This document shows positions 1-34,044 of a stretch of 39,236 bases of DNA, piece after piece. Below the pieces are notes generated by a model. That model ran no database searches. It was given only the letters and a program-made list of their open reading frames with translations, and was not told the origin of the DNA. The translations under genes and the position numbers were made by a program. This stretch comes from a virus, in IMG/VR virus record IMGVR_UViG_3300035183_000994, positions 1 to 39,236 of that record. One strand, given 5' to 3'. Position 1 is the stretch's first letter. Each line of letters opens with the position of its first letter.

Positions 1-75
1 CGGCCGCCGCGCCGCGGCCGCGCGCCGCGGCCGCAATCAATAAAGAATTCGCGCATTACGCCGTGCGCGAATTCT
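1..75. repeat. GC-only repeats and 12-bp hairpin at the left end
   Basis: The first 35 bases are pure G and C and hold two direct copies of an 11-mer (11-21 and 25-35), each containing the self-complementary 8-mer GCCGCGGC. A perfect 12-bp hairpin follows (arms 44-55 and 64-75, loop of 8). No promoter motif is convincing here. Together with 76-244 this is the gene-free left flank. It holds only this hairpin, RNA element A and two or three further stems before the first ribosome binding site at 231-238. If the molecule is circular, it continues the hairpin-rich right end of the window. Confidence 0.7.
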
Positions 76-81
76 GAAAAT

Positions 82-168
82 AGCACGCGCTGCAACGCGT
101 GCTTCTTGGAAATTTTCCGGCGTTCTGGAAAATTTCCAGGGATCACACGTTGCCGCGTGTGCGGCAAC
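82..168 (+). ncRNA. Structured RNA element, copy A (three stems)
   Basis: First of four copies of a three-stem element. Stem 1 is 82-89/96-103 with loop CTGCAA. Stem 2 is 105-118/127-140, 14 bp including the U106.G139 wobble. Stem 3 is 149-156/161-168 with loop GTGT. This copy is the most divergent and has a longer stem 2, but it keeps all three stems through paired changes: the outer pair of stem 1 is A-U, stem 2 has C105-G140 where the other copies have G-C or A-U, and stem 3 has U151-A166 where they have C-G. It lies upstream of the gene at 245, separated by a 7-bp (169-187) and a 9-bp hairpin (201-228). Function unknown. Confidence 0.75.
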
Positions 169-244
169 TGCCGGAAGTGCCGGCAGAAAAATTTTGGCTC
201 GACCTCCAGTGGAAAATCGCTGGAGGTCAAGAAAGGGGGACATC

Positions 245-601
245 GTGGACGCGATTAGGTACATGACTTCCGGGCGCAGCTCAAGCTTCACGCTTGAGCT
301 GCTGGAGCACGATTTCGGGCGGAGCGCCCGAAATTGTGCTCTGGTGATCGCGGGGGCGATCACCGAGGAAGAGTCAAAGCGGGCCGGCTTCTTGGTTTCG
401 ACCAAGAAGCCGGCGATTTGGATTGTTCTTCCCGCCCTTGTCCGCAAGGGCGGGAAGAATTCCGAGGCCGTCCTGAACTACATCAGGACGGCTGCCCCAG
501 ATGAGCAGCAGGCGATTGCCGCTGCCGCCGTCGGAATTTTCCGGCGGCAGCGGCGGCAATTGCCGCAGGTTGACGACCGGTACTACTACGCGGGTTGGTA
601 G
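245..601 (+). CDS. Small unknown protein, cassette A (118 aa)
   Basis: I do not recognise this protein. I chose the GTG start at 245 because AAAGGGGG (231-238) sits six bases upstream; an in-frame ATG at 194 lies inside a hairpin and has no such site. The product is 118 residues, mixed in charge, with a basic, Ala-rich C-terminal third and no signal peptide or membrane segment. The coding sequence is almost entirely hairpins: 276-302, 305-341 (16 bp with one G.U), 343-364, 383-414 (14 bp with a TTCG loop), 426-459, 467-492, 518-554 and 576-620. The stop codon TAG (599-601) lies in the loop of the last. The hairpins may constrain the protein more than the reverse, but the ribosome binding site and open frame support translation. 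It is the cargo of the first of four leader-plus-gene cassettes. Confidence 0.6.
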   Translation: MDAIRYMTSGRSSSFTLELLEHDFGRSARNCALVIAGAITEEESKRAGFLVSTKKPAIWIVLPALVRKGGKNSEAVLNYIRTAAPDEQQAIAAAAVGIFRRQRRQLPQVDDRYYYAGW

Positions 602-620
602 CCCGCGTAGTAGTACCGGT
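576..620 (+). repeat. 19-bp hairpin around the stop codon of the first gene
   Basis: A perfect 19-bp stem (576-594/602-620) has a 7-base loop that ends with the TAG stop of the 245-601 gene. It has no downstream T-tract, so it is not a classical terminator. It could protect the 3' end of the message or act with the palindrome that follows directly. Confidence 0.85.
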
Positions 621-622
621 AA

Positions 623-654
623 TGGGCGGGCGGGAAAATTTTCCCGCCCGCCCA
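623..654. repeat. 32-nt perfect palindrome
   Basis: A perfect 16+16 palindrome with centre AAAATTTT and G/C-rich flanks lies between the hairpin that closes cassette A and RNA element B. As RNA it could form a long stem ending in a run of U. As DNA it could be a dimeric protein site. The U4 within the arm is too short and badly placed for a standard terminator. Confidence 0.85.
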
Positions 655-656
655 CA

Positions 657-724
657 CGCACGCGCTGCGACGCGTGCGCGTTGGAAATATTTCCAGCGCT
701 CACACGTCGCCGCGAGTGCGGCGA
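657..724 (+). ncRNA. Structured RNA element, copy B
   Basis: Stem 1 is 657-664/671-678 with loop CTGCGA. Stem 2 is 678-687/690-699 and contains the conserved U681.G696 wobble. The linker CACAC (701-705) joins it to stem 3, 707-713/718-724 with loop GAGT. The 20 bases of stem 1 are identical in copies B, C and D. A further 7-bp hairpin (726-732/739-745) lies between the element and the ribosome binding site of the next gene. Confidence 0.8.
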
Positions 725-768
725 GCGGCGGCCGGTCAGCCGCCGTAATTTAGAAAGGGGGGTCCATA

Positions 769-882
769 ATGCTTTGGGGAATTTTGATGGCCATCATCGA
801 TCTCCTCTTCCGGCGCGAGCCGGAGGAGGAGCGCGCTCCCAACTCTTGGGAGCGGTGGTTGCTTCCGCACTGGCGGAAGTAG
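769..882 (+). CDS. 37-residue small membrane-like protein, cassette B
   Basis: This very short gene starts with ATG at 769, eight bases after AAAGGGGGG (754-762). The peptide has a hydrophobic N-terminal stretch of about 13 residues (LWGILMAIIDLLF), then RR, an acidic cluster, and a Trp-rich C-terminus (WERWLLPHWRK). That pattern fits a peptide that sits in or on the membrane, but the stretch is short and the function is unknown. A 13-bp stem with a GCGA loop (802-831) lies within the coding sequence. The 3' half, including the stop at 880-882, forms a 22-bp stem (847-868/873-894) with two U.G/G.U pairs. Its upstream context matches that of the other three cassettes, which is the main reason to believe it is translated. 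Confidence 0.55.
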   Translation: MLWGILMAIIDLLFRREPEEERAPNSWERWLLPHWRK

Positions 883-921
883 CCACCGCTCCCACGGCCG
901 CGCGCAGAAATGCGCGCGGCC
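802..921 (+). repeat. Hairpin chain with GNRA tetraloops
   Basis: Three stems stand almost back to back: 802-814/819-831 (13 bp, one U.G, loop GCGA), 847-868/873-894 (22 bp, two wobble pairs, loop ACTG) and 896-906/911-921 (11 bp, loop GAAA). An alternative short stem is 835-842/846-853. GCGA and GAAA are GNRA loops, which are favoured in folded RNA. The wobble pairs would be C.A mismatches in RNA of the other strand, so the plus-strand transcript is the likely structured molecule. Confidence 0.8.
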
Positions 922-934
922 TCTAAAAAGAACA

Positions 935-1000
935 TGCACGCGCTGCGACGCGTGCGCGTTGATTTTCTTCAGCGCTCACACGTCGCCGCGGGTGCGGTGA
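935..1000 (+). ncRNA. Structured RNA element, copy C
   Basis: Stem 1 is 935-942/949-956 with loop CTGCGA and a U.G outer pair. Stem 2 is 956-962/969-975, seven pairs including the conserved U959.G972, with loop TTTTCT. CACAC lies at 977-981. Stem 3 is 983-989/994-1000 with loop GGGT and one G985.U998 wobble. It is followed by two short hairpins (1001-1020 and 1031-1050) and then the ribosome binding site of the next gene. Confidence 0.8.
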
Positions 1001-1066
1001 GCGGCGGCGACCTCCGCCGCAGATTTGATTTCCCACAGAAATCTGTGGGAGAAAGGGGTTTAAATC

Positions 1067-1327
1067 ATGAGCCGCATTTGTCGGCACCGCCCGACCGGGC
1101 GGTGCGGCAACCCATGCACAATGGGTTGCGACCAGATTTACGGTAGCAGCGAGGGCTGCTACCTTGAGAATATTGACAAAGCCTGCGCTGCAATTCGCAG
1201 CGCGGGCGAGATCGGTCCAGGGGCCGCCGCGGTCGCCTATTATGAGGCGATGCGCGGCCTCCGGGCCGAGAGCGAGGCGCGCCGCTGGATTGCGCGCCTA
1301 GATTTGTCAGATAGCGCGGAGGAATGA
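1067..1327 (+). CDS. Small Cys-rich unknown protein, cassette C (86 aa)
   Basis: ATG at 1067 follows AAAGGGG (1052-1058) by eight bases. The first 31 residues hold five cysteines (positions 5, 13, 17, 21 and 31) and a histidine at 7, in a pattern such as CRHR...CGNPC...C that could bind a metal; a sixth cysteine is at 40. The C-terminal half is Ala/Arg/Glu-rich and probably helical. I cannot assign a family. The first 140 bases are a row of 9-11-bp hairpins: 1084-1105, 1107-1129, 1142-1163 and 1181-1207 (one U.G). Most of the cysteine codons are in these stems, so the arrangement could partly reflect selection on RNA. Third cassette of the four-member array. Confidence 0.6.
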   Translation: MSRICRHRPTGRCGNPCTMGCDQIYGSSEGCYLENIDKACAAIRSAGEIGPGAAAVAYYEAMRGLRAESEARRWIARLDLSDSAEE

Positions 1328-1334
1328 ATTTATT

Positions 1335-1375
1335 TCCCCCGCGCCTTGCGGCGCGGGGGACCTCCATCTTTTTTT
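1335..1375 (+). terminator. Probable terminator after the 86-aa gene
   Basis: An 11-bp GC-rich stem (1335-1345/1350-1360, loop TTGC) is followed by T7 at 1369-1375. The eight bases between stem and T-tract make it weaker than a textbook rho-independent terminator. RNA element D starts directly after the T-tract, so the hairpin ends cassette C. Confidence 0.6.
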
Positions 1376-1440
1376 CGCACGCGCTGCGACGCGTGCGCAT
1401 TGTCGTTCTCAGTGCGCACACGTCGCCGCGAGTGCGGCGA
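1376..1440 (+). ncRNA. Structured RNA element, copy D
   Basis: Stem 1 is 1376-1383/1390-1397 with loop CTGCGA. Stem 2 is 1397-1402/1410-1415, where the third pair is A-U (1399-1413) in place of the G-C of copies B and C; the U1400.G1412 wobble is kept. The linker at 1417-1421 is CACAC. Stem 3 is 1423-1429/1434-1440 with loop GAGT. The element ends about 13 bases before the purine-rich ribosome binding site of the 87-aa gene, the closest element-to-gene distance of the four. Confidence 0.8.
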
Positions 1441-1466
1441 GAAGGATTTTAGTAGGGGGGATGTTT

Positions 1467-1730
1467 GTGAAGCTCCGCGGCATCGATAGCCGGAGCCTCT
1501 ACGAGGCAACAGCTATCGATGAGAATTTTGTTGGGAAGCTGCTCGACAGCAGCTTCCCAATTGAGATGGTGAAGGATTCCGTGGTCGCATGGGCGACCTC
1601 CGGGAACCTTCACAGGATCGTCCACATGGCGGAGGACGCCGTGTGGGCGATGAAAGTCCGGGGTCTCCCGGAGCAGAGGATGCGTGATTTCATCATCCTC
1701 TGCATGGAGGTGGCGAATGAAGTAGAGTAA
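1467..1730 (+). CDS. Small unknown protein, cassette D (87 aa)
   Basis: I prefer GTG at 1467 because AGGGGGG (1454-1460) lies six bases upstream; the in-frame ATG at 1461 directly abuts the G-run. The product is 87 residues, acidic overall, probably alpha-helical, with one Cys near the end (ILCMEVANEVE). No family is recognised. Nearly the whole gene folds into nested or consecutive stems: 1481-1490/1512-1521 enclosing 1495-1507, 1531-1543/1548-1560 (13 bp), 1583-1598, 1617-1631/1637-1651 (15 bp, two U.G) and 1673-1682/1694-1703. It is the fourth and last cassette and is followed by a good terminator. Confidence 0.65.
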   Translation: MKLRGIDSRSLYEATAIDENFVGKLLDSSFPIEMVKDSVVAWATSGNLHRIVHMAEDAVWAMKVRGLPEQRMRDFIILCMEVANEVE

Positions 1731-1759
1731 TTTATCTCATCTCGGATTTTATTGAAGGT

Positions 1760-1795
1760 AGCCTAGGGGTGTCCGACCTCTAGGCTTTGTTTGTT
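1760..1795 (+). terminator. Rho-independent terminator after the cassette array
   Basis: An 11-bp stem (1760-1770/1776-1786, one G.U, loop GTCCG) runs straight into TTTGTTTGTT. It should end transcripts of the four-cassette region, so the downstream genes need either read-through or their own promoter. Confidence 0.75.
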
Positions 1796-1816
1796 CAGAA
1801 AACAGGAGGAATTTTC

Positions 1817-2200
1817 GTGCGCATCGGCGACATTTTTGGGATTGATCCCGACGACAAGGTCGGCGGGATCATTGTCCTCCGGCCAGACACCAGGGTCACG
1901 GAGGAAAATTCTCCGTGGCTGAAAGGCGCGAGCCTGATGGCCACGGTGCTGAATGAAATCTGCACCGTCACGCGGTGCAAGGGGTGCGGTGGTTTCAACA
2001 TCGCCACCTACGCGCACGTGGCGGAGCATGACGCGCTGGAGATGGTCATCGCCATCGCCGTTCCGGTTTCGATGGTCGATGACGTCCGCGCGCAGACCGC
2101 TGGACTCGATGTGAAGAGCATCGAGGAAATCTCTAGCAGAAAGGAGGACGACGAGGATAAGAAACCCGGCAGCAGCCCGCTGCCGAAGTGGCTTTCGTGA
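1817..2200 (+). CDS. Unknown protein, 127 aa
   Basis: GTG at 1817 is chosen because AGGAGG (1804-1809) lies seven bases upstream; the ATG at 1787 lies inside the terminator tail. The protein is 127 residues, with a beta-rich middle containing a CKGCGG motif (two Cys that might bind a metal or form a disulfide) and a highly charged tail ending in PLPKWLS. No membrane segment or known domain is seen. Unlike the four genes before it, it has no copy of the three-stem RNA element and uses a standard AGGAGG site, so it starts the ordinary early operon rather than belonging to the cassette array. Short hairpins remain frequent in it. Confidence 0.7.
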   Translation: MRIGDIFGIDPDDKVGGIIVLRPDTRVTEENSPWLKGASLMATVLNEICTVTRCKGCGGFNIATYAHVAEHDALEMVIAIAVPVSMVDDVRAQTAGLDVKSIEEISSRKEDDEDKKPGSSPLPKWLS

Positions 2201-2222
2201 TTGACCTCCAGTAGCAATCCGT

Positions 2223-2246
2223 CCGGCGCGCACAGTTGCGCGCCGG
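2223..2246 (+). repeat. 10-bp intergenic hairpin before the ATPase gene
   Basis: A perfect 10-bp stem (2223-2232/2237-2246, loop CAGT) is followed by CATTTTC. It lies 24 bases before the ATG of the ATPase gene and just upstream of its ribosome binding site. It could be a weak attenuator or a message-stabilising stem; the T-run is only four long. Confidence 0.6.
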
Positions 2247-2270
2247 CATTTTCAATCGAAAGGGGAGAAG

Positions 2271-3458
2271 ATGCGTTCGATTTCTTTCAACAATAAGGGA
2301 GAGAAGGAACTCTCCGACGGGGCCATCAGCGCCTTGACCGGCATCGAGGCGCTCAAGGGTTCCGTGGCCGGCGTGGTGATCGGCCACGAGGAAATTATTC
2401 ACCAGGCCATCCTGGCCGTGATTTCCGGACACCATATGGTGATTATCGGACCTCCAGGAGAGGCCAAATCTCTGACTGTTATGGAGATCGTCCGCCGCAT
2501 CGGCGGCGCGAAGGTCTTCAAGTACCAATTCTCCCAATTCTCCACTCCCGATCATGTCATCGGACCTGTGTCCATTCGCGCGTTGCGCGAAAGAGATCAG
2601 GTCGTGATGAATACCGAGGGCCGGCTCGCCGACTGCCACTTCTTCGTGGCAGAAGAAATCTTCAAGGCGGGGCGGGAAATTCACGACCACCTTCTTCTGG
2701 CGCTCAATGAGCGCGAGGTGGTCAACCCGACGCCAGTGAAGATTCCACTTCGATCGGTGCTCGCGACCAGCAATGAATTTCCTCAGGGAGAGGAAATGGC
2801 TGCGATGCGAGACCGGATTGCTATTCGCATGACGGTCGGGCGACCGCCAGCCAATGTTCTGCGGTCGGTGCTGACCGCCAAGAATCTTGACCGGCTGGCC
2901 ACGATCGAGCGTCCGCCGCTGGTTTCCCTTCAGGACCTCGACATCCTGAAGGAAGCAATTCCGCACGTCGATGTTCCCGACGGCGTGCTGGAATTGCTGA
3001 TGGAGATCGGGGCCAGGCTGGCATCGGCCAATCTCTCGGTTTCGACCCGGAGATTCCGGTGGGCACTCGACCTCATCCGCGCGAATGCGCTGATGCGCGC
3101 CAGCTTGACGGCCAAGACCTCCGACCTGGAGGTCGTCAAGCACGTTTTCTGGGAGGCGCTCTCGCAGCAGCGCTTGGTCGGTGAGATTGTCAACTCGGTC
3201 CTTGGTAAGGACGTCGAGTTGCTCTCATCTATTGCAGAGATGAGAGACTCGGTCGTGCAGTACTACAAGGACTGCATGACCAACGCGCTGACGAAGGACC
3301 AAGAGGTCAACGTGCGGGCCGATGCCGTCACCAGGCTGAGAGAGCTACACAAGCGGCTCGCTGACCTGAAGAAATCCCCGGACGTGGCTGATGACGCGCG
3401 CAAGCTCTCGATCGAGATCGAAGGGCTGATCGACCGCATCGTCAGCGGGAAAATCTAG
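2271..3458 (+). CDS. MoxR/RavA-like AAA+ ATPase
   Basis: A 395-residue AAA+ ATPase of the MoxR group, nearest in motif order to RavA. Walker A is GPPGEAKS at residues 60-67. The Walker B/sensor region reads FFVAEEIFKAG (124-134) and is followed by LLALNERE and ATSNEFP (165-171), as in RavA (EIWKAG, AINER, AASNELP). The usual Walker B Asp of the DE pair is Glu here (EE), and Ala occupies the neighbouring position. The C-terminal 100 residues are helical and shorter than in RavA, with no clear LARA domain. MoxR ATPases work with VWA proteins in remodelling or metal-insertion tasks; the next gene encodes such a partner. The start has AAAGGGG nine bases upstream. Its role in the phage is unknown. 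Confidence 0.88.
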   Translation: MRSISFNNKGEKELSDGAISALTGIEALKGSVAGVVIGHEEIIHQAILAVISGHHMVIIGPPGEAKSLTVMEIVRRIGGAKVFKYQFSQFSTPDHVIGPVSIRALRERDQVVMNTEGRLADCHFFVAEEIFKAGREIHDHLLLALNEREVVNPTPVKIPLRSVLATSNEFPQGEEMAAMRDRIAIRMTVGRPPANVLRSVLTAKNLDRLATIERPPLVSLQDLDILKEAIPHVDVPDGVLELLMEIGARLASANLSVSTRRFRWALDLIRANALMRASLTAKTSDLEVVKHVFWEALSQQRLVGEIVNSVLGKDVELLSSIAEMRDSVVQYYKDCMTNALTKDQEVNVRADAVTRLRELHKRLADLKKSPDVADDARKLSIEIEGLIDRIVSGKI

Positions 3459-3465
3459 CACGAAG

Positions 3466-3499
3466 GGAAGCCCAGGCGCGGCGTCGCGCCTGGGCTTCC
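3466..3499 (+). repeat. 15-bp hairpin between ATPase and VWA genes
   Basis: A perfect 15-bp stem (3466-3480/3485-3499, loop GCGT) lies between the stop of the ATPase gene and the AAAGGAG site (3511-3517) of the VWA gene. There is no T-tract. It could set the ratio of the two partners by stabilising or processing the message between them. Confidence 0.75.
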
Positions 3500-3524
3500 G
3501 CCGTGCCCGTGAAAGGAGAATTCC

Positions 3525-5093
3525 ATGCGGAAGTTCGACCGCTGGGATGATGCCGTCTGGGAATCGGTCAAGCACACGTCGAGGGACATCCTCGACGCGC
3601 GCCGGGCCGCCGAGCAATTCGGCCAGGATATCTCGGACGCCATGGTCCGCCAGATTTTCGGCGCGCTCTACCGGCGCTTCTCGATCGACATCCCGGCTGG
3701 CGATCCGGTCGGAAAGTCGATCGACCTCCTGCTCCAGCCGGTCTTCGAGTCGACCACCTGGCAGGAGCTTCACGACAACGTTGTCGGGAACTCTCTCCTG
3801 TCGTCGATGGCGACCGGCAAGATCGCTGCGCTGCTAGCGCGCGTGAACAACACGTCGTCGTTCGATCTCGGAGATTTGACATTCTGGATCGACAAATACT
3901 CACGTGAACTCGGCTTCTCTCAGAAGAAGCATCAGTCCCTTGAGGACATGGGGAAGTCGAGCGACCCGGAGATCAGAGAGGCAGCCAAGGACAGCAGGAA
4001 GAGCATCCGGCGCAAGATGCGCTCCATGGAGCGTGGCATCGAAAAGAAGCTTGAAAGGCTCCAGGAGATGTCGCAAATGACGCTGGACGAGCGCAAAGCC
4101 AACATCGATGCGGCGATGCGCTCTGTCAAGAACACGATCTCTGCTCTCAAAGAGGGACTTGCGTACATCAGGTCGCAAGGCATCTCGGAAGATTCTGAGC
4201 CGATCGACGAGACGCAGAAAATCTCCGTCGATACCTACGGCTTCTCCCTTGAGGGCGAGGGAAGTGGAAAGACCCTCAGTACGGAGATGATCCGCCGGAT
4301 GTCGACCGACGACCTGTCGGTGACGGAGATTACCCATGTTGTCCGTTCGCTCGGCAGGATCACCGAGAGCTTCGGCGACCTGATGCGGCCGGCCAAGATC
4401 GTTGGGCGTCCAGGATCGATCGTCGGCCTCTCCTACGGGAAGGCGATCGAAAAGCTGACGCCGCTGTCGCTGGCGACGATGGACGAAGAAATCTTCGACC
4501 TGAAGTTCGCCACCGGAAAACTTGAGGTCTACCAGACCTCTGGCCTGGATAATTCCAAGGGTCCGATCATCGTTGCCGTCGATGATAGCGGATCGATGGG
4601 CGGAGAAAAAATTATCTGGGCCAAGGCGCTAGCGCTGGCGATCGCCAAGATTGCCGCCATGGAAGGGCGCGACCTGATCTGGGTCAGGTTCGAAGTCCGG
4701 GCCGACTTCAACATCTTCCGCGGCGGGAAAATCCCGGAGCGTGATGTGGTACGATTGATCTCGGACTTCCGGGCCGGGGGGACAGACTTCCGTTCCTGGA
4801 TGAACGGGATCATCGAGAATGCTGATAGATTCCCGGCCGTCCGGAAGGCCGACCTCCTCCTCATCACCGATGGCGAGTGCCAGGTTGAGGAGACGTACAT
4901 TCAAAATTGGGAAGAATGGAGGAAGAGCCATGACATGAGGTCGATGGCCGTCTACGTTGGTGATGGCCGCGTGCCCGGTATTCTCTACGAGATCGTCGAT
5001 CGGGTCGATCCCATCGACCGCTTCACCAGCAAGAGCGGACAGGATGCGATCGGCCGCGTGATTGGTACCTTGACAGGAGAAAGAGATGTTTGA
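3525..5093 (+). CDS. VWA-domain protein, ViaA/CoxE-like partner of the ATPase
   Basis: 522 residues. The C-terminal VWA domain has a complete MIDAS metal site: DxSxS at 353-357 (DDSGS), Thr 420 in GGTD, and Asp 449 in ITDGE. The N-terminal 330 residues are helical and charged, with a likely coiled coil near 140-215. Size, domain order and the MoxR neighbour match the ViaA/CoxE type of VWA proteins that pair with RavA/MoxR ATPases. Its last eight bases overlap the next gene, so it belongs to the same operon. I infer a complex that remodels a phage or host protein; the target cannot be read from the sequence. The start has AAAGGAG seven bases upstream. Confidence 0.87.
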   Translation: MRKFDRWDDAVWESVKHTSRDILDARRAAEQFGQDISDAMVRQIFGALYRRFSIDIPAGDPVGKSIDLLLQPVFESTTWQELHDNVVGNSLLSSMATGKIAALLARVNNTSSFDLGDLTFWIDKYSRELGFSQKKHQSLEDMGKSSDPEIREAAKDSRKSIRRKMRSMERGIEKKLERLQEMSQMTLDERKANIDAAMRSVKNTISALKEGLAYIRSQGISEDSEPIDETQKISVDTYGFSLEGEGSGKTLSTEMIRRMSTDDLSVTEITHVVRSLGRITESFGDLMRPAKIVGRPGSIVGLSYGKAIEKLTPLSLATMDEEIFDLKFATGKLEVYQTSGLDNSKGPIIVAVDDSGSMGGEKIIWAKALALAIAKIAAMEGRDLIWVRFEVRADFNIFRGGKIPERDVVRLISDFRAGGTDFRSWMNGIIENADRFPAVRKADLLLITDGECQVEETYIQNWEEWRKSHDMRSMAVYVGDGRVPGILYEIVDRVDPIDRFTSKSGQDAIGRVIGTLTGERDV

Positions 5094-5718
5094 CATTTCC
5101 AAGTATCTGATGAAGATCAGGACCCGCGAGGGCCAGCAGGACTACCTGAAGGTTGCCGGAAGAATTCTGGCCCTCCACAACGCCTACCCGGACGGGGGCT
5201 TCGCGATCGAACTCTCGGTCGTGGAGCTTTCCGATGACCGGGCGACATTCATTGCCACCGTTCGCCTCCCGAATGGAACGGTGACGCAAAACGCCGGCTC
5301 CGAAACGCGGGGGGACTTCAACGACTTCATCGAGAAGGCGGCCACCAAGGCAATCGGCCGCGCGCTGGCCAGCGCCGGCTTCGGAACCGAGTACGCTCTG
5401 GCCGACTTCGATATCGGCGAGGGCGAAGAGCGGAAAGATTCCGACATGCCGCGCGTGGTCGATGCGCCGGTTCCCTCCAAGCCTGCGTCGACACGCCCGG
5501 ACAATCTGGCGACCGGCAAACAGATCGGCCTCATTCGCGGGCTGGCTCGCGAGAATGGCCTTTCTGAGGAAGACCTGAATGCCTGGGCGCTGCGCACGCA
5601 CGGCGTCACATCGATCTGGAATCTGGAGCGCGCCCAAGCAAGCGCCCTGATCGACCTGATCAAGGTCAAGGACCCGACATTGTTCGTCAAGGAGGATGAT
5701 GACGATGTGCCCTTCTGA
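5086..5718 (+). CDS. Phage ssDNA-binding/annealing-like protein with SSB-type tail
   Basis: 210 residues. The N-terminal half contains a motif seen in phage Rad52/Erf-like or ssDNA-binding proteins: a beta-rich stretch, then EKAATKAIGRALASAGFGTEY (two lines of the motif: EKAATKAIG and RALASAGFGTEY). A helical domain near residues 140-195 (KQIGLIRGLARENGLSEEDL and following) resembles the C-terminal module of similar phage proteins. The end is DDDDVPF, the acidic Pro-Phe tip by which bacterial SSB recruits replication and repair proteins. It likely coats or anneals single strands during replication and recombination, together with RusA and DnaB further down. It overlaps the VWA gene by 8 bases and has AGGAGA just upstream. 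Family assignment is by motif only. Confidence 0.7.
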   Translation: MFDISKYLMKIRTREGQQDYLKVAGRILALHNAYPDGGFAIELSVVELSDDRATFIATVRLPNGTVTQNAGSETRGDFNDFIEKAATKAIGRALASAGFGTEYALADFDIGEGEERKDSDMPRVVDAPVPSKPASTRPDNLATGKQIGLIRGLARENGLSEEDLNAWALRTHGVTSIWNLERAQASALIDLIKVKDPTLFVKEDDDDVPF

Positions 5719-5938
5719 GCCTGTCACCAAGGAGCGGCTGGAGAGGCTTCTCTCCAACCGCTCCGGCCGACCTCCAATCTCTCCGGATGGTGAAGAGTCT
5801 CGCTTCGTCTCGTTCCGCATCTCCGAGACCGAGGCGATTCTCTGGAAGATGGAGGCGGCTGCGCGCGAAATGTCTCTCTCCGATTTTATTCGTTCTTCGG
5901 TGCGGCGGAGGATCGCCATTGACCGAGGAAACGCCTGA
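5705..5938 (+). CDS. Ribbon-helix-helix-like small protein (77 aa)
   Basis: I chose ATG at 5705 because AGGAGG (5690-5695) is nine bases upstream; ATGs at 5696 and 5699 are too close. Near residues 33-74 the sequence runs RFVSFRIS, then a charged helix and LSDFIRSSVRRRI. That is the strand-helix-helix pattern of small ribbon-helix-helix DNA-binding proteins such as MobC or CopG-type repressors. It probably binds DNA as a dimer, either as a regulator or as an accessory replication factor. It overlaps the gene before it by 14 bases and the gene after it by 20 bases, so translation of all three is coupled. Confidence 0.6.
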   Translation: MCPSEPVTKERLERLLSNRSGRPPISPDGEESRFVSFRISETEAILWKMEAAAREMSLSDFIRSSVRRRIAIDRGNA

Positions 5939-6437
5939 ACTCTGGATCAACCGGGATGCCAAGATCATCCTGGATGCGAATGCGCTCCGGCGTCTGGAGA
6001 TGCACGGCATTACTGCGCCGAAGCGCGTCAACGTCATCCGGGATGAAATGCTCCGGCGGGCGATCGTCGTCGCCTGCCGACTTCCAGCAACGACCCCCAT
6101 CTCCCGAATTCGGGAGATGGGGAAGTCGGGCCTGGAATCGCTTGGCGTCAGCCTGGTCTATCATCGCCACATCGACCCGCGCAACGACACGGTAGTCGTC
6201 TACCGCGTCAATGAGGGGCGCAGAGAGAGGGCGCTCTTCTGGGTCAAGACGCCCGTGGCGCTGATCGACCCTGGCGGCCATCCGCTCGAACGGAAGAAAG
6301 GAGAGATTCCCCATGTCACCGTAACTATTCCCTACGGGGGCGACCCGGAGATTCTTTACTGGATGCGCGAGAAAGACTGGACCGGTGGCTGGAAGGAAGA
6401 AAGGCCGGAGGTAGATCATGCTGAGCACGAGAAATAG
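5919..6437 (+). CDS. Unknown protein, 172 aa
   Basis: The frame is open further upstream, but TTG at 5919 is the likely start: GGAGG (5907-5911) is seven bases away and the upstream part would only shadow the previous gene. The protein is 172 residues, mixed alpha/beta, rich in Arg, and acidic at its end. No family is recognised and there is no membrane segment. An exact 28-nt palindrome (6095-6122) and an outer stem (6078-6086/6121-6129) lie in its middle. It sits in a tightly overlapping block of small early genes between the ssDNA-binding protein and a predicted DNA-binding protein. Confidence 0.65.
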   Translation: MTEETPELWINRDAKIILDANALRRLEMHGITAPKRVNVIRDEMLRRAIVVACRLPATTPISRIREMGKSGLESLGVSLVYHRHIDPRNDTVVVYRVNEGRRERALFWVKTPVALIDPGGHPLERKKGEIPHVTVTIPYGGDPEILYWMREKDWTGGWKEERPEVDHAEHEK

Positions 6438-6777
6438 GGATGAGATGGTCGAGTGGCGCGAACACTGGCGTCGTGCAGCGGCACTGGTCGACCAGATCAT
6501 CAGCCGCTGCGATATCGACCCGGATTATGGTTCCTACGTCGAGTCTCGCCTCAAGGTCGTCAGGGTTGACAGCGCCATTCGCAACGGCGGAATCCTCTCG
6601 CCGTCCGAGTGGGAAGAGGCAGTGTCGGAGCTTTCCGACTCCATCCTGAGGTACAGAAGTGACCTCCTCAAGCAATCAGCCACAGAAAAGCTCGCCGACC
6701 TCGGCTTCCGCGATCCAGCGGATGCCGTCACCTATGTCCAGGCAAGAAAGAATCAAGCGCCTGGAGGAACGCCTTAA
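6418..6777 (+). CDS. Unknown protein, 119 aa
   Basis: ATG at 6418 follows GGAGGT (6407-6412) by five bases and overlaps the previous stop by 20 bases. The product is 119 residues, almost all predicted helix, with WREHWRRAAALVD near the N-terminus and a polar C-terminus. No family, signal or membrane segment is seen. Position and overlap place it in the early operon. Confidence 0.7.
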   Translation: MLSTRNRDEMVEWREHWRRAAALVDQIISRCDIDPDYGSYVESRLKVVRVDSAIRNGGILSPSEWEEAVSELSDSILRYRSDLLKQSATEKLADLGFRDPADAVTYVQARKNQAPGGTP

Positions 6778-6949
6778 GCGCGGTCTGGAATACCTCGACG
6801 CCCACCCGGAAAGTGAGGCGAACGAGGATCGTGCCTATCAGTTGTGGATTGCTCTCCTCAAGGAGTATGAAGCGCTGATGAGGGAAGAGTATGCGGATCA
6901 GCGTCGAAGGGGTTCCGTTCGGACCTCTAGTCAGGATTCTGGCGCTTGA
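6734..6949 (+). CDS. Small helical protein, 71 aa
   Basis: ATG at 6734 is taken as the start; upstream codons of the open frame only shadow the previous gene. The peptide begins MSRQERIKRLEERLKRGLEY, a strongly charged helix suited to a coiled coil or to nucleic-acid contact, and continues with a second helix and a Ser/Arg tail. It overlaps the genes on both sides (44 and 59 bases). No clear ribosome binding site is visible, so it may depend on coupling. Function unknown. Confidence 0.55.
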   Translation: MSRQERIKRLEERLKRGLEYLDAHPESEANEDRAYQLWIALLKEYEALMREEYADQRRRGSVRTSSQDSGA

Positions 6950-7265
6950 GCGCGGCCTGAAGATTGCCGATCTGGCCCGGATGATCGGCATGGACAAATC
7001 ATCGATCTTCAGGGCGGTCATGAACCCATCGCGCAAGCAACACCGGCCACCGTCCCTGAAGATGTTGCTGGGGATCGACCAGGCGCTCAATGCCATCAAG
7101 CCGCTCTCCCCAGAAGAGCGGACGCTGCTGTTCTTGAAGGGCGGCTACCTGCCGCCCTTCGAGAACAGGATCGTCTACTCGAAGGACAACGCGGTCTACG
7201 TTTCGTTCCATCTCGACCGCCCGCTGCGGAAGGAGGTCAACAGTGAGCCCATCGGCTTCGCATGA
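6891..7265 (+). CDS. HTH DNA-binding protein, probable regulator
   Basis: 124 residues. A helix-turn-helix of the Xre/Cro type is visible near residues 24-46 (IADLARMIGMDKSSIFRAVM), followed by a helical part ending in LFLKGGYLPP. Proteins of this shape act as dimeric repressors or switch regulators, so it may control early or late transcription, perhaps together with the sigma factor at 9874. No integrase is present, so a lysogeny switch is not implied. The ATG at 6891 is preceded closely by GGAAGAG. It overlaps the genes on both sides. Confidence 0.7.
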   Translation: MRISVEGVPFGPLVRILALERGLKIADLARMIGMDKSSIFRAVMNPSRKQHRPPSLKMLLGIDQALNAIKPLSPEERTLLFLKGGYLPPFENRIVYSKDNAVYVSFHLDRPLRKEVNSEPIGFA

Positions 7266-7977
7266 TGGACCATCGTTCGATGAATTCCTATCAGGGCTTG
7301 CCAAGAAGAAGGAGGACACACAGCGCGTCCTGAAGGAGATCAAGTTCAACGCAACAAAAGTCATCTCCAACATCATCAAGGAAAACATCGACAGCCAGGG
7401 CGATGCGGCTGACATCCGCATCGCCCTGCTCCTGTCGCAACTCGGCCGGCAGTTCGTCTTGTACGCCGGCAAAGTCTCGCCGCCAAAGGACGATAATCAG
7501 CGCAAGGGCTACGCGCTTGTCTCCGAGCGCATCGACGCATCGATCGATGCCGTCAAGAGACTTGCGAAGATGGTGCCCGTGCAGACGCACTTCATTCTCG
7601 ACATGGAGATCGAGGATGCCAGCGAGGAAGCCAGCATCCGCGACTTTGCCCTGTCGGTCCTTGGCGACGTCGTGAGGCGCTACCTAGAGCGCGAGAACCA
7701 CGAACAGCGAGCCAGGCGCTACAGCGCTGCGCTCATGTGCACCGTCTTCCTGGCGATGTTCATCATCGATGAAGAGCCCAATGTGACATCATCGCTGATG
7801 GCGGCGACATTCACGCTCGGTATGGCGGCAGCGCTGCTGTCGATGGCCGCCGATCACGGACACATCCAGTCCGAGCCAGCGCGCGAGCTAGCACGCCAGG
7901 CCGCAGGTATGGTCGCCGAATCCTCCCTCCATCTCTCGATGGTCGTCAGAGCGACCCAGCAAAATGGGAAGCTATGA
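7243..7977 (+). CDS. Unknown protein with hydrophobic C-terminal segments, 244 aa
   Basis: GTG at 7243 has AGGAGGT (7231-7237) five bases upstream, a good site. Residues 1-155 are helical and charged. Two hydrophobic stretches follow, about 161-175 (SAALMCTVFLAMFII) and 184-203 (SLMAATFTLGMAAALLS), separated by an acidic turn; the rest is helical. The pair could be a membrane hairpin, which would put the charged part on one side of the membrane, or a buried core of helices. There is no known domain. It overlaps its neighbours by 23 and 14 bases. Confidence 0.65.
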   Translation: MSPSASHDGPSFDEFLSGLAKKKEDTQRVLKEIKFNATKVISNIIKENIDSQGDAADIRIALLLSQLGRQFVLYAGKVSPPKDDNQRKGYALVSERIDASIDAVKRLAKMVPVQTHFILDMEIEDASEEASIRDFALSVLGDVVRRYLERENHEQRARRYSAALMCTVFLAMFIIDEEPNVTSSLMAATFTLGMAAALLSMAADHGHIQSEPARELARQAAGMVAESSLHLSMVVRATQQNGKL

Positions 7978-8425
7978 CGATGCGGTACATTTCCTGGCCG
8001 GGATTGCTGACCGGCGCGCGCAGCAATCCCGGTATGTCAGGCCGGAACCTCCGCCACCGCCTGACGAACAGGAAATCGAACGCATAACAGCGGCTCTTGC
8101 CGAACTTCGCGAGCGCGGTGATTACGGCGGGATAGAGTCGATCGACCCGGCCAGCCTGGCAGCATGGATGGCGCTCGAACCAGATAATGAGCTAGCCACA
8201 TGGGCAGCTACTGCGATTCGCATCGCACTAGAGCGCGTCTTCCTGGTGCCAACGACCGCTGGCTGGCTTCCGTACGGATCGCTGACTGGCGGAGAGGCCG
8301 AGCCACTCATCATCATTGGGCGGAGGTCCGATGGAACTTTCGTCATCGGGTTCAAGGCGAGCCGTGATGGCGAGAGTATTGTCCTTCACGAGAACGATCC
8401 ATTAAGGAGGGATCGCAATGTTTGA
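7964..8425 (+). CDS. Unknown protein, 153 aa
   Basis: ATG at 7964 overlaps the previous gene by 14 bases; no strong ribosome binding site is seen, so coupling is likely. A short helical N-terminus is joined by a proline-rich linker (about residues 28-33) to a domain with helices and then beta strands (residues 100-145). No family is recognised. The next gene starts within its last eight bases. Confidence 0.65.
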   Translation: MGSYDDAVHFLAGIADRRAQQSRYVRPEPPPPPDEQEIERITAALAELRERGDYGGIESIDPASLAAWMALEPDNELATWAATAIRIALERVFLVPTTAGWLPYGSLTGGEAEPLIIIGRRSDGTFVIGFKASRDGESIVLHENDPLRRDRNV

Positions 8426-8732
8426 TCCGGAAAATCATGAGCAGTTCGAAATCGTCCAGACCGGAGAAGGACCCGGCGTCTACATGGAGTTGCCCGACCT
8501 GAAGTACGTGAACCACTCCGGCGAAGAGAGGAAAGCACACTGCATGCTGATCTTCCCGGTCGAGACATCGCTGATGGCCATCGCCTCCCAGTCCACCGGC
8601 AATAACATCACGCGTTCGGCCATCGTCATCCCGATCTCCCAGTGGGAGACGCTGCGCGATGCGATCGACGAGCGCATCGGCTTCCTGCGCGAGTATGCCA
8701 AGAAGTACCGCGAGGATAAGAAGAATGGCTGA
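8418..8732 (+). CDS. Unknown protein, 104 aa
   Basis: ATG at 8418 follows AAGGAGG (8404-8410) by seven bases. It is a small alpha/beta protein with strands CMLIFPV and SAIVIPI and a charged C-terminal helix ending KKYREDKKNG. The next gene product has a comparable pattern of strands (FMVTAHI, QTIVLPV, then a Trp and a helix), so the two may be distant paralogues; the resemblance is weak. Function unknown. Confidence 0.7.
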   Translation: MFDPENHEQFEIVQTGEGPGVYMELPDLKYVNHSGEERKAHCMLIFPVETSLMAIASQSTGNNITRSAIVIPISQWETLRDAIDERIGFLREYAKKYREDKKNG

Positions 8733-8991
8733 CTGGAACCCGGAGATGAACGTCGATGCCAAGCGCCTTGCCAGGGTGCTCTATGACATGCGATTGACCG
8801 GACCAATCGCTGTCCGCTACTCGATCTCCTTCTTCGAGGACAACCACGACGTGTTCATGGTCACTGCCCACATCGACAAGGACGGCAAGAACCTGCTAGA
8901 GCAGACCATCGTCCTACCCGTCGTTGGCTGGCAGGATATCGTGAACCACGGCTTCAAGCTTGCCGATCTCGACAGAGACCGGCGTTCCTGA
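8725..8991 (+). CDS. Unknown protein, 88 aa
   Basis: ATG at 8725 overlaps the previous stop (ATGGCTGA), a usual sign of coupling. The AGGATAAGAAG before it is a weak ribosome binding site. The 88 residues form a small alpha/beta protein that resembles its left neighbour in strand order (see that entry). No catalytic motif or family is recognised. Confidence 0.65.
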   Translation: MADWNPEMNVDAKRLARVLYDMRLTGPIAVRYSISFFEDNHDVFMVTAHIDKDGKNLLEQTIVLPVVGWQDIVNHGFKLADLDRDRRS

Positions 8992-9006
8992 ATGACGGAA
9001 TAGGCC

Positions 9007-9414
9007 ATGGGGAACCGGATTGTCATCGCCACCGGCATCATCCCGATGCCACCGTCGATCAACCACGCCTACATTCGCTCCGTGAATGGCGTGTTCAATA
9101 CCAAGGAAATCCGCCAGTGGCGCGATGAGGCGTACTTCTCCTGGATCGCCACGGGAACGGTGCCTGACAAGAAGGTTCCCCCCAAGACCTCATGGGGATG
9201 GAGCGCCTCCTTCCGTATGAGCGGAAGGAGGCGCGACATGGACAACTGCTACAAATCGATCCAGGACCTCATCGCTGCGGTCATCGGTGCCGACGATCGG
9301 TACTGCGATGAGGATTACCACCGGAAGGTCGTCTCTCCCAAATACAAGAATGATGTAGAGATCACCGTCTACATCATTGGAGATGAAGATGAGAAAGAAG
9401 CGGGTCGATCTTAA
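9007..9414 (+). CDS. rusA: RusA-like Holliday junction resolvase
   Basis: 135 residues, the usual size for RusA. The N-terminal strand IPMPPSINHAY is typical of the family. The catalytic motif RRRDMDNCYKSIQDLI (residues 74-89) supplies Asp 77, Asp 79, Lys 83 and Asp 87, and the second acidic cluster GADDRYCDED follows at 94-103. RusA dimers resolve four-way junctions with Mg2+; in phages they resolve recombination or replication intermediates before packaging. A perfect 13-bp hairpin (9203-9215/9222-9234) lies directly before the catalytic motif. It partners functionally with the annealing protein at 5086 and DnaB at 11292. Confidence 0.88.
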   Translation: MGNRIVIATGIIPMPPSINHAYIRSVNGVFNTKEIRQWRDEAYFSWIATGTVPDKKVPPKTSWGWSASFRMSGRRRDMDNCYKSIQDLIAAVIGADDRYCDEDYHRKVVSPKYKNDVEITVYIIGDEDEKEAGRS

Positions 9415-9877
9415 CGAGCTAGCGCTGGCCATCGCCGGCAAGAAGATCATCGTCTCCCAGGGCGATGCCGTTCCGCTCCACCTGAACAAGGAAGAGCTTG
9501 CCGCCTACGAGGCAGCCGTCAAGAACGGCTACCTCATGACCAGGCACGGCAGAAGGCCGAACCTCTCGAACGCCGTGAAGTACTACTGCGGCGCGACCTT
9601 CAGTCCCTTCATCAAGGCCGTCGAATTGTACGGACCGGACTACGCCGGATCGCACCGCATCTACTACGACCTGATGTGGGCCGACTCATCGCTGACCGTC
9701 TACGATTCCCGGCGCGTGCTCCGTCTCTTCGACGACTACGGCATCGATGACGACCGGGTGATCAACCCGATCTGGGGCGGCATCAGGGTAAAATCCGAGC
9801 ATGCAGAGACGGTGGCCAGGGAACTCCTGTCGATCTGCCGGCACTCGATCAACTCCGGAAGTGGCCTCCGTGCATGA
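9389..9877 (+). CDS. Unknown protein, 162 aa
   Basis: Several starts are in frame (TTG 9377, ATG 9383, ATG 9389). ATG 9389 is preferred because GGAG (9379-9382) is six bases upstream. It overlaps the end of rusA by 26 bases. The protein starts MRKKRVDLNELALAIAGKKI and has a middle part rich in Tyr and Asp. No family is recognised. Its last bases overlap the sigma factor start (ATGA). Confidence 0.65.
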   Translation: MRKKRVDLNELALAIAGKKIIVSQGDAVPLHLNKEELAAYEAAVKNGYLMTRHGRRPNLSNAVKYYCGATFSPFIKAVELYGPDYAGSHRIYYDLMWADSSLTVYDSRRVLRLFDDYGIDDDRVINPIWGGIRVKSEHAETVARELLSICRHSINSGSGLRA

Positions 9878-10473
9878 ACGACGAAGAAATCATGGACGCA
9901 TTGATGCGCGGCGATGAGGAGGCGCTCATCACCTTCATCGATCGCTATCAGTCCAAGATCATCGGCTTCGGTATCCGACAATTCGGCATGTCGAAGGACG
10001 AGGCCGAAGACCTTGCCCAGGAGGTGATCATCAGGATATGGTTCAACGCGAGAAACATGAAGAGCAACAAGAGCCTGTCCGGTCTGGTCAACACGATTGC
10101 GTCGAACTACGCCATCGACCGCTACCGGCGCAGCAAGGTTGCGAACATCGACAGGGAGGCCGATGTCTACCTCAGTCCGGTCCCAGATGCATCTGACCTC
10201 TCTAACCCAGAGGCCGTTGCGATCCGCAACGACGAGAAGAGGAGGGCGTCGATTGCGCTCTATCGGGCGCTATCTTCTATCAACCCATCCTACGCAGACG
10301 CCCTTGTCAGGGCATACATTGACGGCAGCGGCAAGACCCTTGGTACGGTTGCCATGGCGATGGGTATCAACGCCATGACCCTCAAGTCGCGCGTGTTCAG
10401 GGCCAGGGCCGCTGCAAGAAAAGCATTGGAGGGTATCCATGGCAAAGATCGAGCCAATTACTCCACTTCCTAA
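9874..10473 (+). CDS. ECF-like sigma-70 family sigma factor
   Basis: 199 residues with two sigma domains. Region 2 shows the core pattern EAEDLAQEVIIRIW (about residues 43-56) and NYAIDRYRRSK, as in ECF sigma factors, where it binds the polymerase clamp and melts the -10 element. Region 4 near residues 125-190 has a helix-turn-helix (LGTVAMAMGINAMTLKSRVF) for the -35 element. Regions 1 and 3 are absent, as in group 4 sigma factors. A phage sigma would redirect host RNA polymerase to middle or late promoters, here probably those of the minus-strand block. It overlaps the gene before by four bases and the one after by 35. Confidence 0.82.
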   Translation: MNDEEIMDALMRGDEEALITFIDRYQSKIIGFGIRQFGMSKDEAEDLAQEVIIRIWFNARNMKSNKSLSGLVNTIASNYAIDRYRRSKVANIDREADVYLSPVPDASDLSNPEAVAIRNDEKRRASIALYRALSSINPSYADALVRAYIDGSGKTLGTVAMAMGINAMTLKSRVFRARAAARKALEGIHGKDRANYSTS

Positions 10474-10852
10474 CTCACTCGAAGAGGCGGAGATGATGCT
10501 CGACCGCCTCTGGCTCGACATCGAGTCGATCAACGAGCAACTGCGCGATACATCGCGCATCGGCCCGGATGGGAAGAAGATCGACGAGAACGAGTATCTC
10601 GTCTGGTTGCGCCGTGCCCGGACGGCGCTGGTCGTCAAGCGCGCGCAGTATCGCGCCGTGAGGACGTGGATTCGCCAGCACGTGCGGAAGAATGGCACTT
10701 CGCGCCACGAGGCCGTCTCAGCACTTGGCGAACTCTACGACGCCATCATCGACTTCTTCGATCGCAACTCGATCGAGCCGGATAGCCTGCTCTCGGCAGT
10801 GCTCTCCCGGATCGAGGATGTGCTCGAAATCTACGATCCATCGGCGGAGTGA
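10439..10852 (+). CDS. Unknown protein, 137 aa
   Basis: ATG at 10439 lies inside the end of the sigma gene and has GGAGGG six bases upstream. The product is helical and charged throughout, with regions such as EEAEMMLDRLWLDIESINEQL and an Arg-rich middle (RRARTALVVKRAQYRAVRTW). That could suit an accessory DNA-replication or nucleic-acid-binding role, but no family is recognised. It precedes a coiled-coil protein and the replicative helicase in one operon. Confidence 0.7.
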   Translation: MAKIEPITPLPNSLEEAEMMLDRLWLDIESINEQLRDTSRIGPDGKKIDENEYLVWLRRARTALVVKRAQYRAVRTWIRQHVRKNGTSRHEAVSALGELYDAIIDFFDRNSIEPDSLLSAVLSRIEDVLEIYDPSAE

Positions 10853-10858
10853 TCGTCT

Positions 10859-11332
10859 ATGACCGACACGCAGCAGCGCCGCAAGCGCAATACAACGAGT
10901 TGGAAATCGGCCGCTACCGCGCTCCGGCTCGACCTCGATATCGCCCGCAAGCGGATCACCGATCTTGAGATCGAGAATCTCAATCTCAGGGTCGACCTCG
11001 ACAATGCGAAGAACAAGGCGGAGACGATCCTGAACGACCGCACCACGCTCGCGAAAGAACTCCTCATTCGCGCAATGCGCGAGATTGCCGAGCGACACTT
11101 TGGGATGCCGGTCTTCATCGGCATTGGCCAGGCGCTCTGGAGCGATGCCCATGCCAAGGAGCCGGTAGCCCTGAACCGGCACGAGGCGATCCTGCTCAAG
11201 AAGCTTTCGTCCTGGTCCGGCGGATGGTGGACGCTGGAGCCAGGCGAGACCGAGATGAAATTCGTCGATATCGATCGCTGGGTGAAGGACTATGAGCAGT
11301 ACAGCAGGAAACCGGGAGAGTCTGCCACATGA
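10859..11332 (+). CDS. Coiled-coil protein upstream of helicase, 157 aa
   Basis: ATG at 10859. A basic N-terminus (QQRRKRN) leads into a heptad-like helix at about residues 20-66 (LRLDLDIARKRITDLEIENL and following). The C-terminal half is compact, with a Trp-rich patch (SGGWWTLEPGE) and WVKDYEQY. It overlaps the DnaB gene by 41 bases. Position suggests a helicase loader, primase accessory or other replication partner, but no loader or primase motif is seen. Confidence 0.65.
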   Translation: MTDTQQRRKRNTTSWKSAATALRLDLDIARKRITDLEIENLNLRVDLDNAKNKAETILNDRTTLAKELLIRAMREIAERHFGMPVFIGIGQALWSDAHAKEPVALNRHEAILLKKLSSWSGGWWTLEPGETEMKFVDIDRWVKDYEQYSRKPGESAT

Positions 11333-12602
11333 TCACCTGGTAGAACAAGCCCTGCTCGGTAGCCTGCTGATCGACCGCGATGCCATACTCACCGCCTCGA
11401 AGATCGTAAGCGAAGACGACTTCTTCGTTCCATCGCACCGGCTGATCTACGCAGCAATCATCCGGCTGATGAAGCGGCGCGTCCCGCCCGACATCATCAC
11501 GGTCGGCGCGGAGATGCGCCTCCGTCACCCGGCAGCCGGCATCGACGAGGCATACCTTTCGACGCTCACCAGCACGGTCCCGACAGCGGTCCACGCCGAG
11601 CACTACGCGCAGATCATCGCCGGCCTCTCGGCGCGCCGGCGGCTGATCGATACCTCGATCAACGTTGCTACTGTTGCCGGAGACACACGTATCGATCTTG
11701 GCAAGGTCATCCTCGAAACGAAGACCTCTATGGCCAGGATCGAGCGCAAGCTGTCGCAAGATAACTTTGCTAGCATCGCTTCGCTGCGCTCGCGCTGCCT
11801 GCCCTCCGGGCAGCAGCGCGGCGTAGAGAGCGGCATCATCGATCTTGACAACCTGACCGATGGCTTCCATCCGGGAGAACTCATCATCATCGCCGCCCGT
11901 CCCGGCGTCGGCAAGAGCGCGCTTGCAACATCGATCGCGCTCAATGCCGCCATCGCGCAGGGAATGAGCGTCGCCCTCTTCTCGCTGGAGATGTCTGGCG
12001 ATCAGGTGGTGATGCGGATGCTCTCGGTCCTGACCGGCATCCCATCACATCTGATCCGCCGCGGGCAGCTCGATAAGTATCAGTGGTATGCCGTCGCCGA
12101 CGCCTACTACCGGCTCGGACGGCTGCCGATCCTGATCGACGATACCGTGATGATCTCGATCGAGGAGCTTGCCCGGCGCGTGAGCAGCACGGCGTCAAGC
12201 CGGCGCATCGATCTCGTGATCGTCGATTACCTTCAGCTTATCTACGGCTCGAAGCCGGACAACCGCGTCCAAGAACTCGCCGATATCAGCCGCGGACTGA
12301 AGGCCATGGCTCGCGATGCGGGCTGCCCGGTCATCGCACTGAGCCAGCTATCGCGCGGCATAGAGCGGAGGTCCGACCGCACGCCGCGACTGTCGGACCT
12401 CCGCGAGTCCGGCGCGCTCGAACAGGACGCCGATATGGTGATCTTTCTCATGCGGGAGGAGCTATGGGATATAGCAGCACCATCGCGCGGGGTGGCGGAA
12501 TTGTATCTTGCCAAGAACCGGAACGGGCCGATCGGATCGGTCAGCGTCAGGTTCGATCACGGAACGACATCGTTCTTCAACCTGGAGGTAAGCGATGAGT
12601 AG
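11292..12602 (+). CDS. dnaB: Replicative DNA helicase, DnaB family
   Basis: 436 residues, near the normal size for DnaB. The N-terminal domain starts with the typical LPHDHLVEQALLGSLLID. The RecA-like domain has Walker A (ARPGVGKS, about 202-209), the switch LFSLEMS (229-235), Walker B (LVIVDYLQL, Asp 312), the SQLSRG motif and the arginine-finger region KNRNGPIG near the end. It unwinds DNA 5' to 3' as a hexameric ring at the phage replication fork. No primase or DNA polymerase is found in the window, so those are probably supplied by the host. A 13-bp hairpin (12365-12377/12392-12404) lies in its C-terminal third. Confidence 0.95.
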   Translation: MSSTAGNRESLPHDHLVEQALLGSLLIDRDAILTASKIVSEDDFFVPSHRLIYAAIIRLMKRRVPPDIITVGAEMRLRHPAAGIDEAYLSTLTSTVPTAVHAEHYAQIIAGLSARRRLIDTSINVATVAGDTRIDLGKVILETKTSMARIERKLSQDNFASIASLRSRCLPSGQQRGVESGIIDLDNLTDGFHPGELIIIAARPGVGKSALATSIALNAAIAQGMSVALFSLEMSGDQVVMRMLSVLTGIPSHLIRRGQLDKYQWYAVADAYYRLGRLPILIDDTVMISIEELARRVSSTASSRRIDLVIVDYLQLIYGSKPDNRVQELADISRGLKAMARDAGCPVIALSQLSRGIERRSDRTPRLSDLRESGALEQDADMVIFLMREELWDIAAPSRGVAELYLAKNRNGPIGSVSVRFDHGTTSFFNLEVSDE

Positions 12603-24917: not shown

Positions 24918-24951
24918 GCCGGGCCGGATCGTGCTGACGATCCGGCCCGGC
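24918..24951 (-). repeat. 15-bp hairpin downstream of the capsid gene
   Basis: A perfect 15-bp GC-rich stem (24918-24932/24937-24951, 4-base loop) lies 30 bases after the capsid stop on the minus strand and upstream of the next ribosome binding site. There is no T-tract. It probably stabilises the capsid mRNA or partly stops transcription, so that capsid protein is made in excess of the later genes. Confidence 0.75.
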
Positions 24952-24981
24952 CTCAAGGAGCACCAGCGCTACTCGCCAGTA

Positions 24982-25992: not shown

Positions 25993-26010
25993 GAGAAGCT
26001 TCTCCCCCCT

Positions 26011-31086: not shown

Positions 31087-31088
31087 GA

Positions 31089-33067: not shown

Positions 33068-33069
33068 GG

Positions 33070-33426
33070 CTATCTCCTCAGCATTCTCACCGGGGCGGCG
33101 TAAAGGTTCTTTCGCGAGGCGTAGTTCTGTGTGGCTGGGTAATCAGCGAACGGATTGCGGCCGGCGAGGAAGTCTTCGAAGCTCATCGTCGATCCGGTGA
33201 GTCCGAGCGCTGAGTAGTTGCGGAACTGTTCCGGGAGCCATTCTTCGAGGAAGCTACGGAAGAGCCGCGGGACTGCTCGCGGCCCGCTGGTTTGGTTGGC
33301 AGCGAGCATATAGGCGAAGGCATTCCGCGGGTCGTCGCGGAATGCCTGCTGCTGGATCGGGCTCCACGTCGCACCGATGAATGGGTTGACGAACGGCACC
33401 CCGCCGTAGGTCACTCCTGATGGCAT
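33070..33426 (-). CDS. Virion-module protein, 118 aa
   Basis: 118 residues, starting MPSGVTYGGVPFVNPFIG and rich in aromatic residues and Arg. Its parts PIQQQAFRDDPRNAFAYML and MSFEDFLAGRNPFADY look like short helices with loops. An 11-bp hairpin (33319-33329/33336-33346) lies within. AGGAGGG precedes the start. No family is recognised; I infer a minor virion protein only from position. Confidence 0.6.
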   Translation of the reverse strand: MPSGVTYGGVPFVNPFIGATWSPIQQQAFRDDPRNAFAYMLAANQTSGPRAVPRLFRSFLEEWLPEQFRNYSALGLTGSTMSFEDFLAGRNPFADYPATQNYASRKNLYAAPVRMLRR

Positions 33427-34035: not shown

Positions 34036-34044
34036 TGGTCGCTC

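Follow-up and report, generated by a model that had tools for sequence, protein, structure and literature searches.

The leader repeated at the left end of this phage genome is one module of a larger structured early transcript, in which coding sequences as well as the leaders are predicted to fold into hairpins. The window, that is, the whole stretch of DNA analysed, is the complete IMG/VR virus record IMGVR_UViG_3300035183_000994 (39,236 bases), and the array of leaders and small genes opens the early operon of a tailed phage. The reading that we propose, and to which we give a probability of about 40%, is that the structure of the early mRNA may protect it from RNases or from an RNA-targeting defence, for example type III CRISPR.

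Starting at the left end, the early genes point to the right (small genes, MoxR ATPase, VWA protein, SSB-like protein, ECF-type sigma factor, DnaB), and the late genes of the window point to the left; the features of interest are collected in Table 1. The sigma factor, encoded at 9874-10473, contains Sigma70 regions 2 and 4. None of the phage records is close to the window in DNA. One viral contig, L063, is 93% identical to it, covering positions 24927-38798 of the window, which contain late genes only. When viral contigs were queried with the MoxR, VWA and SSB-like proteins, no relatives with the early region were found, and the DnaB query returned distant relatives only. Matches to the SSB-like protein are confined to Thermus phages, the single source of a match to the VWA protein is a Moorella phage, and the order ATPase, VWA, SSB-like, DnaB is common to the window and Thermus phage P23-45. 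Early gene order and protein matches place the phage near P23-45, and its host is likely a thermophile.

Table 1. Features of the structured early region and of the right end (positions in the window)
Feature	Position	Strand	Remarks
Leader copy 1	82-168	+	direct repeats, alignment, folding; long hairpin or three-stem alternative
Small gene 1	245-601	+	118 aa, GTG start; ORF, hairpins, codon-shuffle z -7 to -9
Hairpins in gene 1 mRNA	276-302, 305-341, 343-364, 383-414, 426-459, 467-492, 518-554, 576-620	+	hairpin search
Closing hairpin, cassette 1	623-654	+	perfect, 14 bp
Leader copy 2	657-724	+	direct repeats, alignment, folding
Small gene 2	769-882	+	37 aa; codon-shuffle z about -3
Two closing hairpins, cassette 2	847-894, 896-921	+	hairpin search; the first overlaps the end of the ORF
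Leader copy 3	935-1000	+	direct repeats, alignment, folding
Small gene 3	1067-1327	+	86 aa; codon-shuffle z -4 to -7
Closing hairpin, cassette 3	1335-1360	+	followed by seven T at 1369-1375
Leader copy 4	1376-1440	+	direct repeats, alignment, folding
Small gene 4	1461-1730	+	89 aa (ATG 1461) or 87 aa (GTG 1467); codon-shuffle z -6 to -8
Terminator-like hairpin, end of array	1760-1786	+	TTGTTTGTT tail, element 1760-1795; terminator search
127 aa gene	1817-2200	+	early gene after the cassettes
MoxR ATPase	2271-3458	+	early gene
VWA protein	3525-5093	+	early gene
SSB-like protein	5086-5718	+	early gene
216 aa ORF	5787-6437	+	early gene
Three paralogous perfect palindromes	38862-38917, 38975-39032, 39053-39106	+	24-26 bp, 6-nt loops; right of the gene at 37890-38606

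The initial annotation had reported four leader copies, and their places are confirmed by two families of direct repeats (D1/D2) and two alignments (A1/A2). The elements CTGC(G/A)A, CACAC and G(A/G/T)GT are present in all four, each of which is followed, as had been described, by a G-rich ribosome site, a strong one, and by a small ORF that differs from copy to copy. Leader length is 65-87 nt, with the loop and the top of the stem varying among the aligned copies. A covariance model built from the four copies gives them 80-98 bits on the + strand, these matches being recovered by construction; the - strand reading of the leader palindromes obtains 40-61 bits, and the rest of the window never exceeds 23.3 bits. 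Relative to dinucleotide shuffles, the leaders fold with z values of -9.1, -6.1, -5.8 and -4.3. The alignments show the four leaders to be homologous.

Three stems had been described in each leader. They are indeed kept in all four copies, but only as a local alternative to a more stable structure: at minimum energy each leader forms a single long hairpin, regularly interrupted by mismatches and 7-16 kcal/mol more stable than the local three-stem fold. Over the four copies, 98.9% of the cells are paired in the long hairpin and 100% in the three-stem fold, and each fold has three pairs changed on both sides, which is above the usual shuffle result. Columns 13, 70 and 85 co-vary (A/T/A in copy 1, G/C/G in the other copies), column 70 being the partner of column 13 in one fold and of column 85 in the other, and the U-G pair formed by columns 25/58 is invariant. 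Because both folds are kept in all four copies, the leader looks bistable. This suggests a bistable RNA, from a comparison of four sequences with few events, several of the changes being single.

A search of the whole window against Rfam returned nothing at or above any gathering cut-off, in line with the earlier remark that no described RNA family matches the leader. The leader pattern had 0 matches in IMG/VR. A shorter pattern led to 80 loci that were read, with a top covariance score of 21.9 bits, and the leader pattern had nine scattered matches in genome contigs, with a top score of 19 bits; both sets were judged to be chance. Likewise, the covariance model found no leader in 46 capsid-protein-related records, many of which are fragments. 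Building such a model and searching with it had been proposed as a check: the model recovers the four copies, and no further leader came to light in the viral and genome contigs searched, among which no relative with the early region was found.

The cargo is as first described. According to the ORF list, the small genes encode 118, 37, 86 and 87 aa (89 aa for the fourth if its start is ATG 1461), and they are mutually unrelated in sequence (blastp E of at least 0.57). A repeated structured leader with unrelated cargo is supported, and so is its location among early genes. In-frame coding scores are positive for the four ORFs, weakly so for gene 3. Searches of Pfam, PHROG and PADLOC with the four proteins gave no significant match. 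The gene 4 product has a confident four-helix model (a predicted helical bundle, pLDDT 85.8) with no significant fold match, and no usable structure model was obtained for the gene 1 product. The hexamer ACCTCC, which forms the core of the 16S anti-Shine-Dalgarno sequence, has five + strand copies within 2.3 kb (at 202, 1010, 1360, 1596 and 2204), and these could pair with the G-rich ribosome sites.

Hairpins had been taken as the elements that close each cassette. Closing hairpins do exist, but hairpins also cover the coding sequences, and gene 1 is tiled with them end to end. Perfect inverted repeats with a stem of 10 or more and a loop of 3-14 number 31 in the window; shuffled windows have 0 or 1 each, and 20 shuffles of the region 1-1800 yielded 0. 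At the left end, thirteen of them begin inside a stretch of 1.5 kb; among 258 other viral loci (3.0 Mb) the maximum is 4. The share covered by near-perfect hairpins is 51% for positions 1-1800, 4% for 1801-12600 and 1% for the late region; RNA folding z values of three stretches are -23, -20 and -12. The early genes at 1817-6437 (+) have a weaker excess of mRNA structure than the cassettes, and few perfect hairpins. It counts against a protective structure that at 65 C many 36-nt windows are still open and that the open fraction also varies among late genes. An assembly artefact was considered and rejected: the arms are short, the frames are open, the ORFs have positive coding scores, and one late coding hairpin is seen again in another contig.

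Long hairpins are also found elsewhere in the window. A 23-bp perfect palindrome (20923-20975) lies in the coding part of a gene for a repetitive (LSEALATSV) protein, and a Q-rich/A-rich gene stretch has a 26-bp perfect hairpin in L063 (7188-7247), imperfect in the window (31583-31635). L063 begins near the right-end palindromes, and its other end, which has a fold-back match, falls inside the 24918-24951 hairpin; its ends look as if assembly broke at hairpins. In a circular or permuted genome, and only then, the right-end palindromes would belong to the structured region.

Codon choice extends the observation beyond the cassettes. With protein and codon usage kept and synonymous codons shuffled, z is -8.9, -3.2, -7.4 and -8.2 for cassette genes 1 to 4, -7.5 for MoxR and -6.8 for VWA. 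It ranges from -0.5 to -3.3 at 7.2-12.6 kb and from -3.6 to +1.3 in the late genes, and 48 genes from other phages of similar G+C give a background with a mean of -1.3 and a minimum of -5.2. Other window settings of this test gave the same direction, with smaller values for some genes. The first ~6.4 kb are the clearest stretch of coding RNA that folds better than its synonymous shuffles, and the RNA-level constraint proposed at the outset is supported.

The question arises as to whether the structure is kept as RNA or is left behind by events on the DNA. A structure kept as RNA tolerates G-U pairs on the transcribed strand. In 1-1800 the sense fold contains 57 G-U pairs and the antisense fold 18 (p = 2e-4, allowing for composition), and of nine early genes, six have a stronger z on the sense strand than on the antisense strand, the other three an equal or weaker one. 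We infer from these sequence patterns that the early transcript is under selection as RNA. Within near-perfect hairpins alone the bias of G-T to A-C is weak (10 to 4); because this is not decisive, an origin at the DNA level stays a rival. The hairpins would in that case be a by-product, devoid of RNA function, of template switching near the genome ends or the origin, palindromes being created and corrected during replication. Several features fit: the stems are nearly perfect, 360 of 383 pairs being Watson-Crick; from one right-end palindrome to another, among the three, seven central pairs have both partners replaced, as full double changes, and the central stem has no G-U intermediates; both hairpin clusters lie at contig ends; and codon register is not optimised, codon position 3 pairing with position 3 in 9 of 17 coding hairpins and the register that leaves most synonymous freedom not being favoured. 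The bias of G-U pairs to the sense strand speaks against such an origin, as do the synonymous structure excess of MoxR and VWA, two genes with few near-perfect hairpins, and the existence of a distinct leader family with both folds kept in four copies. We consider template switching an improbable explanation of the whole.

Could the leader and hairpins instead be composite terminator/promoter or anti-terminator modules, the dense hairpins amounting to punctuation plus read-through? Transcription would then be ended or modified between cassettes, as it is by the promoter-terminator modules of T4-type phages and P23-45, or the leader would act on the polymerase like the put RNA of HK022. Four recurring elements do precede small early genes, and terminator-like sites in 1-3600 number 14 for 3.4 expected. 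The pre-early array of P23-45 (Oshimavirus) also contains many small unrelated early genes and short repeated control modules with hairpins; its repeats, however, consist of a 25-26 nt hairpin terminator motif and an AT-rich promoter for the virion RNA polymerase (PMC10770324), and P23-45 has neither a 65-87 nt leader nor a tiling of coding mRNA. The combination of a 26-nt terminator motif and an AT-rich promoter for each gene does not occur in the window, whose repeated unit is another sequence. The put RNA is, like the leader, a structured early RNA of ~70 nt with stems broken by bulges or mismatches, and it acts on early genes; it differs in being present once per early promoter, in having two stem-loops and in working through RNA polymerase (PMC9378689). 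Within the window, no promoter-like block is shared upstream of the leaders, sigma-70 promoters on the + strand are not above chance, the U tracts after the leaders are short, and structure extends into synonymous coding sites and into MoxR and VWA, for which punctuation is no explanation. We regard such modules as an unlikely account of the array. A virion RNA polymerase of the N4 or P23-45 type, with hairpin promoters, was also looked for and rejected: the polymerase motif DxDxD occurs only in an open frame antisense to the amidase gene, and this frame is not a likely protein.

Other phages have stem-loops or repeats before early genes. As presented in PMC4503421, the promoter-early stem-loops (PeSLs) of T4-type phages are repeated stem-loops that adjoin small early genes, and work cited there reports that they mediate the shuffling of interchangeable small early genes; PeSLs contain an early promoter, whereas none is recognisable in the leaders of the window, a phage-specific promoter being possible. 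Stem-loops and unrelated small genes are present together in this one phage. Structured coding sequence is, to our knowledge, absent from the known descriptions of PeSLs. In cluster K mycobacteriophages a subset of genes has, just before the start sites, an ESAS, an imperfect inverted repeat whose spacer varies (PMC3203893). The leaders share this build and likewise lie upstream of genes; the arms of an ESAS measure 17 bp, whereas the leader arms are of about 30 nt and each also folds on itself, and the 13-bp SAS motif of ESAS, GGGATAGGAGCCC, is absent from the window at up to 2 mismatches. An excess of RNA structure spread through coding sequence recalls GORS, which, in the mention made in PMC6563262, is described in positive-strand RNA virus genomes, whereas the present virus is a tailed DNA phage and the excess lies in part of its early mRNA. 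Coding RNA more stable than its synonymous shuffles over a long stretch is found in this one phage. Repeated modules before small early genes are a variant of a known arrangement; what surprises is the tiling of coding mRNA with hairpins.

General adaptation of mRNA to high temperature has also been envisaged, since the early proteins have relatives in thermophilic phages and the early genes of P23-45 have a mild excess of structure, with a mean z of -2.0 against -0.85 in its structural genes. Yet the late genes of the phage studied here are mostly without excess, P23-45 is without hairpin tiling, and temperature alone leaves the restriction to early genes unexplained; we hold this explanation to be very unlikely. 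Three early genes of P23-45 (L272 34354-35208, 35290-37140 and 27112-28803, the gp64 polymerase gene included) have a synonymous structure excess with z of -5.5 to -5.9.

Returning to protection of the early mRNA, the following sequence of events can be proposed. As the leader leaves the polymerase, its local stems would form first and would then refold into one long hairpin, which would give each gene an identical structured 5' segment. The coding part of the message would collapse into back-to-back hairpins, and this structure would shield the first viral messages up to the completion of take-over. In addition, the leader common to the four genes would be a candidate homologous segment for the exchange of small genes. 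In thermophiles, type III CRISPR would be the natural candidate opponent. The sensitivity of type III targets depends on RNA structure, and the worst guide improved by two orders of magnitude when a short oligonucleotide took the place of the folded transcript (PMC8682760). The same paper raises the possibility that type III systems of thermophiles are less affected by structure, which counts against an anti-type III role. In the Thermus phage phiFa, protective type III spacers fall in the early region (PMC7515739). The trace expected of an anti-type III role would equally be left by protection from RNases or by thermal stability.

In its full form, the proposal is that the early mRNA of a DNA phage, coding sequences included, is a chain of hairpins under a recurring bistable leader and acts as a shield against RNA-targeting immunity or RNases in the first minutes of infection. 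We put this forward tentatively, as a doubtful but specific idea. We know of no example of fold-based counter-defence in DNA phages. If the structure is selected as RNA, protection would be carried by the fold of the early message and not by a protein; if true, this would explain how folding can set codon choice in early genes. The array adds a new design to the known ways in which phages organise their small early genes.
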